Source: Desulforamulus ruminis DSM 2154
Lineage (GTDB): Bacteria; Bacillota; Desulfotomaculia; Desulfotomaculales; Desulfotomaculaceae
Assembly: GCF_000215085.1 (NCBI RefSeq)
Contig: NC_015589.1
Coordinates: forward strand, 3,298,120 to 3,362,119
Length of the DNA stretch: 64,000 bases
Reading direction: 5' to 3'
This document shows positions 16,544 to 23,872 of this stretch, one piece after another. The notes beneath the pieces are model-generated. The model was not told the origin of the DNA and searched no databases. It saw only the letters and a list, made by a program, of their open reading frames with translations. A program made the translations under genes and the position numbers. The stretch's first letter is position 1. The number at the start of each line of letters is the position of its first letter.

Positions 16544-18526
16544 TTGTCACAGGAAACACTGGAGATCATCTTTGTCCTTTCTTTTGTCGTTTATTTTCTA
16601 GGAGCGGTTCTCCCTCTTATTCTCCGGTATAAACGGAAACTATCGCTGGCACTGGGTTGTTTTGCCGGGGCTCTGGCAAGTTTACTGGGTTTCATGGTAG
16701 GGATAGAAACCCTGCTGTCCCCCCTACCCCTTACGATTCATTTAGTAAACATCCTGCCCGGCGTAGATTTTCATCTTTCCATAGACAGGTTAAGCGGCTT
16801 TTTTCTGGCTACCTTATCCCTGGTAACCTTCCTGGTTTCCTGTTTTTCATGGAACTATATGAAGTTATACCGTCAAGAAAACCTGGCCTGGTGGTGTTTT
16901 TGTTACAACCTCTTTGTCCTTTCCATGAGTTTGCTGGTAACCGTAAACAACGCCATCACCTTCCTCATCGCCTGGGAGCTCATGACGCTGGCCTCCTACT
17001 TCCTGGTAACCTTTGAATACCGCCATCAACCGGTACGAAAAGCCGGCTTCAGTTACATCGTAATGACTCATTTGGGAACCGTCTTTATTATCGCCTCCTT
17101 CCTCATGATGTCGAACGGCAATGGATGGGATTTCTCAACTTTATCAAAAAATAGCGCTGCCATGCCGGAAATGACAAGGAGCATGGTATTTATTTTTGCC
17201 CTGATCGGATTTGGCACCAAGGCGGGAATTGTTCCTCTGCATCTCTGGCTGCCCATGGCTCATCCGGCGGCCCCCAGCAATATTTCCGCCGTCATGAGCG
17301 GTATTATGCTGAAGACCGCCATTTATGGCCTAATCCGCCTGGTGTTTGATCTTTTAGGACCGGGACAAGCCTGGTGGGGCGGCGTCATTTTGGCCGTGGG
17401 CATTGTATCTTCCCTCATTGGGGTTCTTTACGCTCTGATGGAGCAGGATTTAAAACGCCTGCTGGCTTATTCCAGCGTGGAAAACATCGGCATTATTTTA
17501 ATGGGCATCGGCACAGGCTTTATTTTTTATTCCTGGTCCATGATGATCCCTGCGGCCATGGCCATGGCTGCGGGAATGTTCCATTTGTTAAACCACGCCA
17601 TTTTTAAAAGTCTCCTGTTTTTAGGCGCCGGTTCAATTTATTATGCCACCGGCAGCAGGGATACCGAGAAATTGGGGGGGCTAATCAAAAAAATGCCCCA
17701 CACCGCCATTCTTTTTCTGGTGGGCTCTCTAGCCATTTCGGCTATCCCGCCCTTTAACGGATTTGCCAGTGAATATCAAATTTATCAATCCCTATTAAAC
17801 CTTTCTTACCTTAAAATATCCGGCTTTTGGAGCATTGGCGCCATTTTAGCCTGTGTGGCTCTGGCCCTGACCGGGGCTTTGGCGGCTGCCTGCTTTATTA
17901 AAGCCTTTGGCCTGACTTTCCTGGCCCTGCCCCGGACAGCAAAAGCGGCAGAAGCCCAAGAAGTCCCCTGGCCTATGCGCTTAAGCATGGCGCCCCTGGC
18001 GGTTTTATGCCTGGCCCTGGGTATTTTTCCCGGTCCGGTGCTTAATCTTCTTACCGGAATTACCAGTCAACTGGTTGGCAGCCCTCCGATTCCCCAAATT
18101 GCCACCTTTAATGCCAATTTGGCCCTGGTACTGCTTATCACCCTGGGGCTGCTGTGGGGAATTACCCGGCTGATGGGCGGCGCTAAAGTAAGACGAACAG
18201 AAACCTGGGGTTGCGGCATTGACCTTGACGCCACCATGGAATATAGCTCCGCCTCCTTCTCCCAACCCCTGCGCAGGGTCTATGGAACGTTGCTGCAGCC
18301 CCAGCGGCAGATCAGCCTCCGGTTTAAGCAACTGCCCTATTTTGGTTATCACATTACCTTTAAAGAGCCGGTTCGCTCGGTGATTAAAGACTATTTATAC
18401 AGCCCTTTAAGAAAAATAACCCTCGTGCTTTCAAAAAAGTGGCAGTGTATCCAGAGCGGCAGCATTCATCTCTATCTCAGCTATATTTTTATAACCTTGG
18501 TTATTCTACTGCTGTTTAACGAGTAA
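16544..18526 (+). CDS. hyfB: Hydrogenase-4-type proton-translocating subunit HyfB/HycC
   Basis: The 660-residue membrane protein is an antiporter-like (NuoL/MrpA-related) subunit with about 15-16 helices. It has conserved charged residues in hydrophobic settings: Trp-Glu-Leu-Met near residue 145 and Gly-Thr-Lys-Ala-Gly near residue 225. His-Pro-Ala-Ala-Pro-Ser-Asn-Ile-Ser-Ala follows, then Asp-Leu-Lys-Arg-Leu-Leu-Ala-Tyr-Ser-Ser-Val-Glu. It should move H+ or Na+ when the hydrogenase module turns over. It uses a TTG start after CAGGAGG. It opens a six-gene operon; the next gene begins 12 bases past its stop. The C-terminal part (about residues 540-660) carries the HyfB/HycC extension and a final helix. 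Confidence 0.88.
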   Translation: MSQETLEIIFVLSFVVYFLGAVLPLILRYKRKLSLALGCFAGALASLLGFMVGIETLLSPLPLTIHLVNILPGVDFHLSIDRLSGFFLATLSLVTFLVSCFSWNYMKLYRQENLAWWCFCYNLFVLSMSLLVTVNNAITFLIAWELMTLASYFLVTFEYRHQPVRKAGFSYIVMTHLGTVFIIASFLMMSNGNGWDFSTLSKNSAAMPEMTRSMVFIFALIGFGTKAGIVPLHLWLPMAHPAAPSNISAVMSGIMLKTAIYGLIRLVFDLLGPGQAWWGGVILAVGIVSSLIGVLYALMEQDLKRLLAYSSVENIGIILMGIGTGFIFYSWSMMIPAAMAMAAGMFHLLNHAIFKSLLFLGAGSIYYATGSRDTEKLGGLIKKMPHTAILFLVGSLAISAIPPFNGFASEYQIYQSLLNLSYLKISGFWSIGAILACVALALTGALAAACFIKAFGLTFLALPRTAKAAEAQEVPWPMRLSMAPLAVLCLALGIFPGPVLNLLTGITSQLVGSPPIPQIATFNANLALVLLITLGLLWGITRLMGGAKVRRTETWGCGIDLDATMEYSSASFSQPLRRVYGTLLQPQRQISLRFKQLPYFGYHITFKEPVRSVIKDYLYSPLRKITLVLSKKWQCIQSGSIHLYLSYIFITLVILLLFNE

Positions 18527-18538
18527 GGAGCAATGTTC

Positions 18539-19438
18539 ATGGCAAATCAACTTTTTATAACCGGCAGTCAAATCATCCTTCTGCTTTTATTGGCCCCCCT
18601 GGTTCAGGGATTCATTAAAAAGACCAAGGCGCTCTTGCAGTGCCGCCGGGGTCCGGGCGTGCTGCAGCCCTATTACGATCTTATGAAATATTTCAGCCGG
18701 GAGCCGGTGGTCTCGGAAAATACCTCCTGGCTGACGCAGGCGGCTCCCTATATCTGTCTCACCGCCTATCTGGTGGCCGGCAGCTTAATTCCTTTCTGGA
18801 CGCATGACAGCCCTGCCGTGGGGGATTTAATCGCTTTTATCTATTTGTTTGCCCTGGCCAGATTTTTTCTGGCACTGGCAGGTCTGGAACCGGCCAGCGC
18901 TTTTGGGGGTATGGGTTCCAGCCGTGAAATGATGATTACCACGCTGGTGGAACCGATACTGGTAACCGGCTTGTTTGCTCTGGCCCTGACGGCCGGAACA
19001 ACAGACTTAAAAGGAATTATGGGGGCCGGACATAATCCTGCCGGCCTGCTGTCTTTTATCGGGCTCATGGTTGTCATTATCGCGGAAACCGGCCGCATTC
19101 CCGTTGACAACCCGGATACCCACCTGGAGTTAACCATGGTGCATGAGGCCATGCTGCTGGAGTATGCCGGCAGGCAGGTGGGCCTGCTGCACCTGGCGGC
19201 CATGATTAAACAAACGGTTCTCCTAACGCTGCTGGTGCATTTATTTTTACCTCAGCCCGCAGGCCTGCCCCTAGGGTTGTCCCTGGGTCTTATGGCAGGC
19301 AAGGTCCTTCTTTTAGGCTTGGTGCTGTCGGTGATTGAAAGTTCCCTGGCCAAGATGAGGCTGTTTAAACTTCCCGAACTGATGGCCGGCGGAGCCGCTT
19401 TTTGCCTGCTGGCTGTATTAAGTAATTGTCTATTATAG
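18539..19438 (+). CDS. hyfC: Hydrogenase-4-type membrane subunit HyfC/HycD (NuoH-like)
   Basis: This protein of about 299 residues with eight membrane helices is the NuoH-family anchor that links the hydrogenase arm to the ion pumps. It keeps family motifs: Gly-Pro-Gly-Val-Leu-Gln-Pro-Tyr-Tyr-Asp-Leu near residue 45, and Glu-Thr-Gly-Arg-Ile-Pro-Val-Asp-Asn-Pro-x-Thr-His-Leu-Glu-Leu-Thr-Met-Val-His near residue 185, which is the NuoH quinone-channel loop region. Start 18539 has AAGGAG at 8 bases; the ATG at 18533 is too close to that SD. hyfE follows 11 bases later. Confidence 0.9.
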   Translation: MANQLFITGSQIILLLLLAPLVQGFIKKTKALLQCRRGPGVLQPYYDLMKYFSREPVVSENTSWLTQAAPYICLTAYLVAGSLIPFWTHDSPAVGDLIAFIYLFALARFFLALAGLEPASAFGGMGSSREMMITTLVEPILVTGLFALALTAGTTDLKGIMGAGHNPAGLLSFIGLMVVIIAETGRIPVDNPDTHLELTMVHEAMLLEYAGRQVGLLHLAAMIKQTVLLTLLVHLFLPQPAGLPLGLSLGLMAGKVLLLGLVLSVIESSLAKMRLFKLPELMAGGAAFCLLAVLSNCLL

Positions 19439-19449
19439 GAGTGTCTGAC

Positions 19450-20088
19450 ATGTTTAATCTTTTAGCCTTTCTTTTTATTATTACCGGGCTTTTAATGCTT
19501 GCCGGCCGCATGATCTCCAACAACATTCGCTTATTGGGCATGCAGTCCCTGGTCTTAAGCATCATTGCTTTTTATCTTGCATTTTCGGGCGGCATGGACG
19601 GACATATGCTGGTGGTGGGCCTTCTTACTCTGCTGGTAAAAGTGATTGTACTGCCCCGGGTTCTTTTAAATCTGGTGGAGAAACTCAAAGTGAACCGGGA
19701 AATTTCCCTGTCCATCGGATTGGTTCCTTCCACCTTTATCGGCTTAATCCTGATCGGTCTTACTTACGCTTACGTGGTACCGGTATTATTAAAAGAGGTC
19801 CAGGTGGGAAGCCATCTTTTATCCGCCGCCCTCTCCACGGTTTTACTGGGCTGCTTCTTTATGATCAGCAGACGTTCTGCCTTTAGTCAACTCATGGGTA
19901 TTGTGGTGATGGAAAACGGGTTGTTTCTGTGCGCCATTGCCGTTACCGGCGGAATGCCTTTAATTATTGAGCTGGGTATTTTCTTCGATCTTTTGGTGGG
20001 AGCCCTGGTAATGGGGATGATGACGCATCAAATCAAGGGGTCCTTTGAAACTCTGGACACCAAATATTTAAATAAATTAAAAGGATGA
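19450..20088 (+). CDS. hyfE: Hydrogenase-4 component HyfE-like membrane protein
   Basis: This protein of about 212 residues is almost entirely membrane helices (six or seven). Its position between the NuoH-like and the second antiporter-like gene, its size and its late acidic residue in a helix (Val-Met-Glu-Asn-Gly, the NuoK-like Glu) match HyfE of hydrogenase-4, which is related to NuoK/MnhC. It would be part of the ion path. ATG 19450 follows AGGAG at 8 bases. Its TGA stop overlaps the possible ATG of the next gene. Confidence 0.85.
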   Translation: MFNLLAFLFIITGLLMLAGRMISNNIRLLGMQSLVLSIIAFYLAFSGGMDGHMLVVGLLTLLVKVIVLPRVLLNLVEKLKVNREISLSIGLVPSTFIGLILIGLTYAYVVPVLLKEVQVGSHLLSAALSTVLLGCFFMISRRSAFSQLMGIVVMENGLFLCAIAVTGGMPLIIELGIFFDLLVGALVMGMMTHQIKGSFETLDTKYLNKLKG

Positions 20089-20093
20089 ACGTT

Positions 20094-21575
20094 ATGCTGT
20101 ATCTTTTATTATCCATACCCTTTTTTACCGGCGTTTTATGCTGGCTCTCCCTGCCGCTGAAGTGGCTGGAAAGGATCAATGTCCTCGGTGCTGCCCTGAC
20201 CGGAGCCCTGGCTTTTTATGCCGCCCTGGGGGTCTTCCGGGAGCAGTCCTTGGCCCATGCCGGTTCCTTACTGGTCATTGATGAACTTTCGGCGGTGCTG
20301 GTTTTTATTATTGGTATGGTGGGAACCCTCTGCTGCCTATATTCCGTCCAGTATCTCCGGACCGATTTAAAGAACGGGGAATTGACCGAGAATAAAATCG
20401 GAAGATTTTTTGGACTACTTCACTTTTTTATCGCCACCATGTATCTCTCGGTACTGGCGGATAATTTGGGGCTGATGTGGGTAGCCATCGAAGGAACCAC
20501 CATTGTCTCCGCCCTTTTGGTAGCTTTTTACGGTCATAAAGCCGCCCTGGAGGCAGCCTGGAAATACATCATCATTTGTACTGTGGGCATTGCCTTTGCC
20601 ATGCTGGGAATTATTTTAACTTTTTATGCCGCCCGGGAAATATTGGGCTCCGGTGATATCAGCCTGAGCTGGCGTTCCCTCTACCCTGTGGCTGCCAGTC
20701 TGGATCCATCGGTGATGAAGTTAGCCTTTATTTTTGTTTTGGTGGGTTATGGCACCAAAGCCGGCCTTTTTCCTCTCCATACCTGGCTGCCAGACGCCCA
20801 TAGCCAGGCCCCCTCTCCGGTCAGCGCTTTGTTATCGGGGGTTTTGCTGAATTGCGCTATTTATGCCATTGTCCGTTTTCATCTGCTGACTTCCCTGTCC
20901 GCAGGCAGCGGTTTTTCCGGCCACCTGTTAATGATTTTCGGCCTGATCTCTATGGCCGCAGCGGTCCCTTTTATTTTGGTCCAAAAAGACATTAAACGGT
21001 TACTGGCTTATTCCAGTGTAGAACATGTGGGCATTATTGTCTTGGGTCTAGGTCTGGGAGGCGTCCTGGGCTACACCGGGGCCATCCTGCACCTGATAAA
21101 CCATGCTCTGGCCAAATCCGCTTTATTTTTAACCGCCGGAACCTTAACCCAAAAATATAACAGCAAGCTGATTGCCCGCATTCAGGGCATCGGCCAATTA
21201 CTGCCCATTACAGGCACCTTGTTTATGGCTAGTTTGCTGGCCATTGGCGGGGCTCCCCCCTTTGGCTTATTCTTCAGTGAGTTGACCGTGGCCACCCGGG
21301 GATTCCATTCCGCGGGAGTGCTGCTCGGCTTTTTGTTTTTAATGGTCATTGCCATTGTCTTTGCCGGACTGGTGTATTTTGGCGGCAAAATGTATTTCAG
21401 CGACACTCCCAGCCGGTTTTTCAAGGGAGAATCCCTTACCGCCAGTCATCTATTAATTTTGCTGCCCATCGGGCTGCTTATCTTTCAAGGGATCTATATG
21501 CCCCAGACGGTACAAGAGCTCATTGATCAAGTGGTTCAATTTATAACTGTTGGAGGTGGTGTAGCCAATGTCTAG
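20094..21575 (+). CDS. hyfF: Second antiporter-like subunit HyfF (NuoN/NuoM-like)
   Basis: This membrane protein of about 493 residues has about 14 helices, with the family motifs Trp-Val-Ala-Ile-Glu-Gly-Thr-Thr near residue 130, Gly-Tyr-Gly-Thr-Lys-Ala-Gly-Leu-Phe-Pro-Leu-His-Thr-Trp-Leu-Pro-Asp-Ala-His near 225, and Asp-Ile-Lys-Arg-Leu-Leu-Ala-Tyr-Ser-Ser-Val-Glu-His near 305. These hold the Lys/Glu/His of the proton channel. Two starts are possible: ATG 20085, overlapping the hyfE stop, and ATG 20094. I prefer 20094 because AAAAGG lies 9 bases before it. hyfG overlaps its end by 8 bases. A second pump subunit means a larger ion yield than in the six-subunit Ech hydrogenase. Confidence 0.88.
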   Translation: MLYLLLSIPFFTGVLCWLSLPLKWLERINVLGAALTGALAFYAALGVFREQSLAHAGSLLVIDELSAVLVFIIGMVGTLCCLYSVQYLRTDLKNGELTENKIGRFFGLLHFFIATMYLSVLADNLGLMWVAIEGTTIVSALLVAFYGHKAALEAAWKYIIICTVGIAFAMLGIILTFYAAREILGSGDISLSWRSLYPVAASLDPSVMKLAFIFVLVGYGTKAGLFPLHTWLPDAHSQAPSPVSALLSGVLLNCAIYAIVRFHLLTSLSAGSGFSGHLLMIFGLISMAAAVPFILVQKDIKRLLAYSSVEHVGIIVLGLGLGGVLGYTGAILHLINHALAKSALFLTAGTLTQKYNSKLIARIQGIGQLLPITGTLFMASLLAIGGAPPFGLFFSELTVATRGFHSAGVLLGFLFLMVIAIVFAGLVYFGGKMYFSDTPSRFFKGESLTASHLLILLPIGLLIFQGIYMPQTVQELIDQVVQFITVGGGVANV

Positions 21576-23151
21576 TGACGTCTTATGGAGGGAAATTCAA
21601 AAACATCCTGAACTGGACGTGACCCAAGTAAGTTCTTTGGGCGGGGCAAAAACCTGGAAGCTGGGCGTTCCGCTGGAAAAGCTCCCTGAAATAACCGGCA
21701 GTTTAAAGGAAATGGGCGCTCGCCTGCTCACTTTATCGGCCATTGATGAGCGAGAGCTAAACCGGCATTTTGCCCTGTGTTCGGCCTTTGCCCTGCCTTT
21801 AGAAAACACCCTGGTTGAAATCCGGGTGCTGTTGGACGGCGCAAACCCCCGTTACCCCTCCGTTACCATGGACTTCCCTTCCGCTCACTGGCTGGAAAGG
21901 GAAGTCAAGGATATGTTCGGAATCGTCCCGGAGGGGCATCCGGATCTGCGCCGGGTTGCTGTTCATCCCGACTGGCCCGGAGACCTTTTCCCCTTGCGAA
22001 AAGATTTTATCAGCGGAACCAAGGTACCAAGGGTGCCGGGAAAAATGGAGTTTTGCCCCGTGGAGGGGGAAGGGCTTTACCAGGCTCCGGTGGGCCCCGT
22101 CCATGCAGGAATTATTGAGCCGGGGCATTTCCGGTTCTTCACCTTCGGTGAAGACGTAATTAATTTACAGGCCCAATTATTTTATACTCACCGGGGGATT
22201 GAGAAAACAGCGGAAGGCATGCATTTTCTGGACGCCGCCCTGGTGGCTGAAAGAATCTGCGGCGTTTGCTCCGCCTCCCACGCCGCTTCCTACGCCCAGG
22301 CCATTGAATCCCTGGCGGACGTAGCGGTCCCCGGGAGGGCCCGGTTTATCCGTAGCATTTTATTGGAAATGGAGCGCCTGTACAACCATGTGGGCGACAT
22401 TGGAAACGTATGCGCGGGAATCGGATTTTCCTATGCCATCAGCCGGGGCGCCCTGCTAAAGGAACAGTTGATGAGAATGAACCTGCGCCTGACAGGTCAC
22501 CGTTATTTAAGGGGAACCATCCTTCCCGGAGGGGTTACTGGGGAGCTGAAGGATTTACCGGTCATCATGAAGGAACTGGAGCGCCTGCAAATGGATTTAA
22601 AAGAATTGACCACCATTATGCTCTCCTCCCAGTCCCTGCTGGACCGTATGCACACCACCGGCATTCTCACCCGGGAAACCGCTGCCACGCTGGGCGCGGT
22701 GGGACCGGCGGCCCGGGCCTCCTCCATCGACTGTGACCTGCGCCGGGATCTGCCCTATGCGGCTTATAACCAACTGAGCTTCCAGATACCGCTGCAAACA
22801 GGCGGGGATGTGCTTTGCCGTTTGAAACAACGTATTGACGAATGTGAGCAGTCTTTTAGCATTTTAAAACAGTCCTTTAAACATCTGGCCCGGGAAGAAG
22901 GTCCCCTGTGCGTGGAAGTCCCTTATCTGCCTCCTTACCAGACCGCCGTAGGCTACAGTGAATCGGCCAGAGGAGCCAACGTCCATCTGGTTGTAAGCGG
23001 CCCGGACAACACCCTCTTCCGTTATATGGTGCGCTCCGCTTCTCACTGCAACTGGCCCGTCGTTCCTCTTTGCGTTCCCGGCAACATTATTCCCGACTTT
23101 CCTTTAATTAACAAAAGCTTTGAATTATGTTACGCCTGCCTGGACCGGTAG
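21568..23151 (+). CDS. hyfG: Group 4 [NiFe]-hydrogenase large subunit (NuoC-NuoD fusion, HyfG/HycE-like)
   Basis: The 527 residues join a NuoC-like 30-kDa domain (about 1-150; Glu-Arg-Glu-Val-Lys-Asp-Met-Phe-Gly motif) to a NuoD-like catalytic subunit. Both nickel-binding motifs are kept: N-terminal Arg-Ile-Cys231-Gly-Val-Cys234 with the following Ser-His, and C-terminal Cys521-Tyr-Ala-Cys524. All four cysteines mean a true hydrogenase rather than a complex I subunit. Two oddities are visible. The C-terminal motif is Phe-Glu-Leu-Cys, not the usual Asp-Pro-Cys. The protein also ends three residues after the last Cys, so there is no tail for an endopeptidase (HycI/HyfR type) to remove. Start ATG 21568 follows TTGGAGGTGG. 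Confidence 0.92.
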   Translation: MSSDVLWREIQKHPELDVTQVSSLGGAKTWKLGVPLEKLPEITGSLKEMGARLLTLSAIDERELNRHFALCSAFALPLENTLVEIRVLLDGANPRYPSVTMDFPSAHWLEREVKDMFGIVPEGHPDLRRVAVHPDWPGDLFPLRKDFISGTKVPRVPGKMEFCPVEGEGLYQAPVGPVHAGIIEPGHFRFFTFGEDVINLQAQLFYTHRGIEKTAEGMHFLDAALVAERICGVCSASHAASYAQAIESLADVAVPGRARFIRSILLEMERLYNHVGDIGNVCAGIGFSYAISRGALLKEQLMRMNLRLTGHRYLRGTILPGGVTGELKDLPVIMKELERLQMDLKELTTIMLSSQSLLDRMHTTGILTRETAATLGAVGPAARASSIDCDLRRDLPYAAYNQLSFQIPLQTGGDVLCRLKQRIDECEQSFSILKQSFKHLAREEGPLCVEVPYLPPYQTAVGYSESARGANVHLVVSGPDNTLFRYMVRSASHCNWPVVPLCVPGNIIPDFPLINKSFELCYACLDR

Positions 23152-23164
23152 AGAAGGGAGATCT

Positions 23165-23872
23165 ATGCTAAAGCTTATCGAAGGTTATCTCAAAACAAAA
23201 ATTGTGACCGAGGACATCCATACCCGGGACAACCTCTCTTTAACCAGGGGACTGCCGGTGATTGATCAAAATCGCTGTCGACCCGGCTGCCAATTGTGTG
23301 CAGCCGCCTGCCCCACCGGAGCAATGGTGGAAAAGCAGGTGGCAGCCAAGGCCTGTATTTACTGCCACCGCTGCCGGAATGCCTGTCCGGCGGGCGCCAT
23401 TGCAACCACCAGCCCGCCGCTGATTTCCGGGGCACCGGAGTTATTGCAGGAAACCCTGCGGGAGCGGATTAAAAAAATATGCAGAAAATCCCTGCATATC
23501 CGTTATGTGGACACGGGTTCCTGCAATGGTTGCGATTTTGAAATCAACTCCTTAACCAATCCTTTTTATGATATTCAGCAATACGGCATTGATTTTGTGC
23601 CCTCGCCCCGCCATGCGGATATGCTCATCGTAACCGGCGTGGTCACCCGCAATATGGAGATTGCCTTGAAAAAGACCTATGAAGCCTGCCCCAAACCCAC
23701 CCTGGTGGTGGCCGTGGGAGCCTGCGCCTGCGGTGGGGGCATGTTTAAGGATGCTTATGCCGCCGGAGGGGGTGTTGACCAACATCTGCCTGTGGATGTT
23801 TATATTCCGGGCTGTCCGCCCACCCCGGCCTTAATTTTGGAGGGCATTTTAAAGGCGGTTAACCGGATTTAG
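23165..23872 (+). CDS. hyfI: Ferredoxin-NuoB fusion: hydrogenase small subunit (HyfH/HyfI-like)
   Basis: The protein of about 235 residues fuses two modules. Residues about 30-85 carry two [4Fe-4S] motifs: Cys-x3-Cys-x2-Cys-x3-Cys-Pro (slightly altered spacing) and the canonical Cys-x2-Cys-x2-Cys-x3-Cys-Pro. Residues about 110-235 are the NuoB/HycG-like small subunit with Gly-Ser-Cys-Asn-Gly-Cys-Asp, Gly-Ala-Cys-Ala-Cys-Gly-Gly-Gly and Pro-Gly-Cys-Pro-Pro-Thr-Pro, which hold the proximal cluster. Electrons would pass from ferredoxin through these clusters to the NiFe site. In E. coli these modules are separate genes (hyfH, hyfI). ATG 23165 follows AAGGGAG. It is last in the operon; a hairpin follows at 23923. 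Confidence 0.9.
   Translation: MLKLIEGYLKTKIVTEDIHTRDNLSLTRGLPVIDQNRCRPGCQLCAAACPTGAMVEKQVAAKACIYCHRCRNACPAGAIATTSPPLISGAPELLQETLRERIKKICRKSLHIRYVDTGSCNGCDFEINSLTNPFYDIQQYGIDFVPSPRHADMLIVTGVVTRNMEIALKKTYEACPKPTLVVAVGACACGGGMFKDAYAAGGGVDQHLPVDVYIPGCPPTPALILEGILKAVNRI

Follow-up and report, generated by a model that had tools for sequence, protein, structure and literature searches.

The window analysed here, a 64,000-nucleotide stretch of the genome of Desulforamulus ruminis DSM 2154, a sulfate reducer from the rumen, encodes a hydrogenase-like large subunit that stops shortly after its last metal-binding Cys. A sequence-only reading of this DNA had proposed that the subunit must mature without a protease, or else that the protein is not fully assembled. 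The locus therefore raises two questions: whether a C-terminal tail is really absent, and whether the site formed by the four Cys ligands receives a NiFe centre. The six-gene operon Desru_3260-3265 of D. ruminis was described in 2012 as an Ehr complex with a large subunit keeping four Cys (PMC3569383).

The six-gene operon and its large subunit

All six genes, and the features within them, lie on the + strand. A HyfB-like antiporter subunit (16544-18526; 660 aa; PF00361), which scores over the cut-off of NF005086 (hydrogenase 4 subunit B) with 673.7 bits, is followed by a HyfC/NuoH-like membrane anchor subunit (18533-19438; 301 aa; PF00146, E 3e-43), a HyfE-like membrane subunit (19426-20088; 220 aa) that matches NF008556 (hydrogenase 4 membrane subunit) below the cut-off at 96 bits, and a HyfF-like antiporter subunit (20085-21575; 496 aa; PF00361) that matches NF005044 (hydrogenase 4 subunit F) at 489 bits, also below the cut-off. 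The large subunit (21568-23151; 527 aa; start ATG, stop TAG), probably Desru_3264, is a HycE/HyfG/EhrL-like fusion of NuoC and NuoD with matches to PF00329, PF00346 and PF00374. The last gene (23165-23872) encodes a small subunit of 235 aa, in which a ferredoxin-type part with two 4Fe-4S motifs (Fer4 families) is fused to a NuoB/HyfI-like part (PF01058) carrying a CNGC (CxxC) proximal-cluster motif. The neighbouring genes, read by eye, include a SpeD-like gene and a lipoate ligase-like gene, and no Rfam match was obtained near the operon.

The large subunit shares the NuoC-NuoD fusion, the L1 and L2 Cys and the fold with the group 4a subunits of E. coli, HycE (hydrogenase 3) and HyfG. HycE chain 7z0s_E is matched with an E-value of 7e-94 and is also the best PDB match of the AlphaFold model (TM 0.91), with complex I next. 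The model has a pLDDT of 87.4 and a pTM of 0.91; one row of its input alignment, from a plasmid record, was left out. Residues 525-527 and loop 176-191 are of low confidence, hence no geometry is claimed. The structural match to HycE shows the fold and not the metal.

All four Cys ligands of a NiFe site are present. The L1 motif, RICGVCSASH (R229-H238; 22252-22281), contains Cys231, Cys234 and His238, and the L2 motif, ELCYACLDR (23122-23148), contains Cys521 and Cys524, with the stop codon (23149-23151) directly 3' of it. The two motifs match the group-4 patterns C[GS][ILV]C[AGNS]xxH and [DE][PL]Cx[AGST]Cx[DE][RL]. Glu184 (22117-22119) is the equivalent of E193 in HycE, the proton-transfer Glu of the beta1-beta2 loop; Glu occupies this position in 26/26 clade rows of the alignment and also in the Cys-less Ehr, Hyc, Ech and Coo rows. 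The canopy Arg, Arg468 (22969-22971), corresponds to HycE R478 and lies in ESARG versus EAPRG. Both residues are conserved as in group 4, but the Cys-less Ehr rows keep them too, so they are not diagnostic.

The canopy Asp shows a different picture. In E. coli FHL, the Asp at HycE D529 belongs to the canopy and is described as strictly conserved across hydrogenases and complex I (PMC9474812); in the D. ruminis subunit it is replaced by Glu519, and the carboxylate is retained. Glu519 and Leu520 are fixed in all 26 clade rows, versus D-P in the Hyc, Ech and Coo rows. The Cys-less Ehr rows mostly have N-L at these two positions, and Leu520 is common to nine of the ten. We infer that the clade is marked by a fixed E-L pair instead of D-P ahead of the first L2 Cys, where Glu would preserve the canopy carboxylate. 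The sequence-only reading was right that the DPC motif is absent, ELC being present and the D529 position changed, but it overstated the oddness, since the group-4 L2 signature permits [DE][PL]C (PMC7886697). Judged from the motifs, the missing DPC is a real but chemically mild difference, less odd than was stated.

C-terminus and maturation proteases

Most related large subunits carry a C-terminal extension that has to be cleaved off. The 527-residue large subunit of D. ruminis ends ...FELCYACLDR-stop. The earlier description of an end three residues after the last metal Cys is accurate (E519-L-C521-Y-A-C524-L-D-R527-stop). It is extremely improbable that a sequencing error at the stop codon conceals a longer C-terminal tail. 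The C-termini of the close homologues were aligned, as had been suggested, and the same nine terminal residues and stop are found in 6/6 of those found (63-70% identity); intact members across the wider clade also end at the corresponding position. Among the relatives collected, the clade C-terminus is ...PDFPLINKSFELCY[AS]CxDR-stop with few exceptions, and the Hyc rows bear the known tail. The ATG of the downstream gene (23165) begins 13 bases past the large-subunit stop, and reading in frame past this stop gave nothing like a HycI-type tail. A tail hidden by a sequencing error was rejected on the ground that the homologues end at the same Arg.

In the phmmer alignment, R527 aligns with R549 of the tagged HycE chain 7z0s_E, and the HycE match ends CYSCTDR. 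HycI cleaves the tail off HycE, which has D-P where the D. ruminis subunit has E-L, at the Arg that forms the end of the D. ruminis subunit. We regard it as almost certain from these comparisons that the large subunit is translated already ending at the Arg where HycE ends after cleavage, and that no endopeptidase step takes place. Tail-less large subunits are reported in groups 2b, 2d, 4c, 4e and 4g (PMC7294309), and another account lists 2b, 2d, 4c and 4e (PMC12134894). The D. ruminis subunit ends directly after L2, as in groups 4c, 4e and 4g, and because such tail-less group-4 hydrogenases are known, protease-free maturation is ordinary. For example, Ech and CooH (4e and 4c) likewise have no C-terminal tail and end ...CxxC-x-[ED]-R; unlike the D. 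ruminis subunit, they have the DPC motif, lack a fused NuoC domain in the rows examined and, in the control genome G467, have HypD close to their operon. The proposed protease-independent maturation is supported by the clade-wide absence of a tail, by an end equal to that of mature HycE and by these precedents.

Looking for a protease gene in the genome, the other check suggested, does not decide the question. Profile searches identified two HycI-family genes in D. ruminis, and both match the general family TIGR00072. One adjoins a tailed group-1 NiFe hydrogenase (DLCSSCSAH followed by 15 residues), HypF and HypD. The other is an orphan at genome position 2063578 (L039 10519-10956), with no hydrogenase gene seen in the surrounding stretch read. 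Neither passes the HycI equivalog cut-off (TIGR00142; orphan 54 bits versus 119), and the C-terminal assembly peptide with a cognate HycI, a trait of group 4a HycE/HyfG, is missing from the D. ruminis system. Because two family members exist, the question of cleavage is settled by the missing tail and not by a missing protease. Protease absence was rejected as a deciding test on this ground and because Pfam PF01750 missed a TIGR00072-type protease in the genome G227. This G227 protease (L145 7048-7536) adjoins a tailed NiFe large subunit.

One of the two D. ruminis proteases might still serve the four-Cys subunit, for example as an assembly factor that does not cleave. An orphan family member is available, and a protease that bound a large subunit without its peptide has been discussed (PMC7654741). 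We consider such a role very unlikely, as neither gene scores as a dedicated HycI and one of them sits with the tailed group-1 hydrogenase. There is also no HycI match in six genomes of the four-Cys clade, a count that leaves out G227, where the search misses one.

Relatives and Hyp genes across genomes

The search for the four-Cys subunit took in 113 genomes from the class and 399 from the phylum, and a four-Cys, NuoC-fused, tail-less subunit was found in 29 genomes; G429, whose member has three Cys, was left out of this tally. In the tree, the four-Cys clade and the Cys-less Ehr form one branch apart from the tailed Hyc with a support of 100, and a broader tree separates them likewise. The D. 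ruminis complex and Ehr are alike in the six-subunit operon, the NuoC-NuoD fusion, the PDFPLxNKSF-L C-terminus and the lack of a tail. Typical Ehr large subunits are without the Cys ligands, whereas the D. ruminis one has retained all four (noted in PMC3569383), so that it groups with the Cys-less Ehr rather than with Hyc but has not undergone the ligand loss that is an Ehr trait. A single Cys-less clade is not rejected (AU p 0.68) and 3 Cys changes were counted, the tree leaving the number of losses unfixed. A regain of Cys by the four-Cys clade from within the Cys-less Ehr is unsupported by the tree. Partial ligand losses occur near or inside the clade, at the first L2 Cys in L078 and at the second L1 Cys in L113. 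Similar six-gene clusters in related Bacillota have been placed in HydDB group 4f (Ehf; Desulfosporosinus Desor_1267, Desulfitobacterium ACL22288-93) (PMC5037454, PMC7248197, PMC9888536). Judged from published descriptions, the D. ruminis complex likely belongs to group 4f; one survey dropped its 4f candidates after extra checks (PMC9431212).

The Hyp test covered 55 genomes and used profiles for HypA, HypD, HypE, HypF, HycI and PF00374. HypD and another NiFe large subunit were found together in 24 of the 29 four-Cys genomes. The other five (G036, G039, G043, G234 and G462) have the four-Cys subunit with no HypD match, no HycI match, and HypE and HypF not over the cut-off, and this is the new observation reported here. 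With five of the 29 genomes in this state, the tie to the Hyp cofactor machinery, a trait of group-4 hydrogenases, does not hold across the clade. The PF00374 search revealed no other strong NiFe large subunit in these five genomes (a second, weak match in G462 was counted but not listed), and HypA was matched in G234 and not in G036, G039, G043 or G462. The five genomes are 99-100% complete; G043 and G234 are closed and the rest are drafts.

In the positive controls G125 and G208, a tailed Hyc is the only NiFe enzyme detected, and HypD and HycI lie near it. In the control G467, HypD lies near a tail-less Ech/Coo-type operon that is present besides the four-Cys subunit, and HycI has no match. 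Among the genomes with Cys-less Ehr, HypD is present in 5/11 and absent from 6/11, the same pattern as in the four-Cys clade. HypD occurs in 0/5 of the genomes in which the four-Cys subunit is the sole NiFe-type subunit. The Hyp genes track the other hydrogenases, not the four-Cys subunit.

The genome G043 is taken as D. acetoxidans. In D. acetoxidans 5575-T, a [NiFe]-hydrogenase is given at Dtox_0791-0796 and cited as support for H2 use (PMC3035247). Because PF00374 matches once in G043, the four-Cys operon there should be Dtox_0791-0796. This operon (L135; G043:C1:800500-815500) is the sole NiFe-type operon of a closed genome in which HypA, HypD, HypE, HypF and HycI were undetected.

The Hyp-less relatives might be relics, in which Hyp was recently lost along with the other hydrogenases and the four-Cys operon has yet to decay. 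The five lineages could indeed have lost Hyp recently: the Hyp-positive G035 and the Hyp-less G036 belong to the same genus, which implies that some losses are recent, and D. acetoxidans carries 302 pseudogenes (PMC3035247). For a group-1 enzyme, the draft G318 may offer a parallel. A group-1 NiFe large subunit with a tail and a HycI-like gene are present there (L146, C40, 4659-7942) with no HypA, HypD, HypE or HypF match, which reflects either an assembly gap or an unmaturable enzyme and shows that Hyp can be missing from a draft, or that relic hydrogenases exist.

Several results nevertheless make the relic explanation unlikely. The absence of Hyp spans four families. In G043, G039 and G036, each of the six subunits has its full length, with 65-76% identity to those of D. 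ruminis (66-76% for G043), and G234 and G462 have complete operons that are more divergent. Hyp-less tips in the tree (0.29, 0.09, 0.32) are not longer than Hyp-positive ones (0.21, 0.32, 0.36 and about 0.36). The closest pair of a Hyp-less and a Hyp-positive member has a dN/dS of 0.14, which indicates purifying selection, dS being saturated for most pairs and the ratio usable for few only. Intact operons, tip lengths and dN/dS together argue against decay, and a change of function would remain compatible with them.

Hydrogenase or Ehr-like complex

The large subunit is a member of a clade of Ehr/Ehf-type complexes with four Cys and no tail; such complexes are six-subunit, ion-translocating relatives of formate hydrogenlyase. 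From the subunit make-up, electrons from ferredoxin most likely enter at the ferredoxin domain of the small subunit and pass through its three 4Fe-4S clusters, and their use would be coupled to ion pumping by the antiporter-like subunits. Because four-Cys orthologues and whole operons persist where no HypD, HypE or HypF was detected, the complex is probably independent of a Hyp-made NiFe(CN)2CO centre and would work more like an Ehr complex than like a hydrogenase. The earlier suggestion that the protein is not fully assembled is strengthened by the relatives that retain the four Cys in genomes where these Hyp genes were undetected. Two points speak against the Hyp-independent explanation. The D. 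ruminis subunit retains what a functional hydrogenase has, namely the four Cys, both the Arg and the His of L1, the Glu for proton transfer and the Arg of the canopy; and the absence of Hyp is inferred from profile searches, with three of the five genomes being drafts.

The complex may instead be a true energy-converting [NiFe] hydrogenase, as the authors of the genome paper suggested (PMC3569383). Hyp proteins would then load NiFe(CN)2CO with no cleavage, as in Ech and Coo, H2 would be made from ferredoxin with ion pumping, and the Hyp-less relatives would be dying or changed in function. The conserved ligands and catalytic residues and the predicted HycE fold are consistent with this, and loading of the site in D. 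ruminis is possible, as Hyp genes lie beside its group-1 hydrogenase. We consider a true hydrogenase a serious but less likely alternative, given that HypD is missing from all five genomes in which the four-Cys subunit stands as the sole NiFe-type subunit and that the Hyp-less orthologues have intact operons and show no acceleration. In addition, the L1 His has been lost in six rows of the clade and the L1 Arg in one (L102), with the Cys kept.

Beyond the Hyp-independent, Ehr-like working preferred here, a more specific proposal can be made with some caution for the clade, which is widespread in Bacillota. Its four-Cys site may be without NiFe(CN)2CO, holding another metal or acting via thiols, and the complex may be an ion-pumping ferredoxin oxidoreductase. 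The sulfane sulfur reductase MBS of P. furiosus, which keeps two of the four Cys, sets the precedent that membrane complexes in this superfamily can work without NiFe (PMC7684303). Its chemistry involves a proximal cluster with three Cys (PMC7684303), in contrast to the hydrogenase-like CxxC and the complete set of large-subunit Cys in D. ruminis. If the proposal is true, enzymes annotated as [NiFe] hydrogenases, including that of D. acetoxidans, would be misannotated, and the clade would be a candidate for an intermediate form linking hydrogenases to complex I-like enzymes. The presence of four Cys is the usual test for a group-4 hydrogenase in genome surveys; if the clade passes this test yet survives where the cofactor machinery is missing, H2 metabolism would in many cases have been predicted on unsafe grounds.

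Two relatives show altered subunits. In G234, no ferredoxin part is fused to the small subunit (L136 6513-6998), and the L1 Arg of the large subunit has been lost. In a relative of the operon from the same genus (L127; G002:C64:126200-130800), found in a genome that is 72% complete, the large subunit is split over several frames and its L1 motif reads RISGIC, the first Cys being replaced by Ser.
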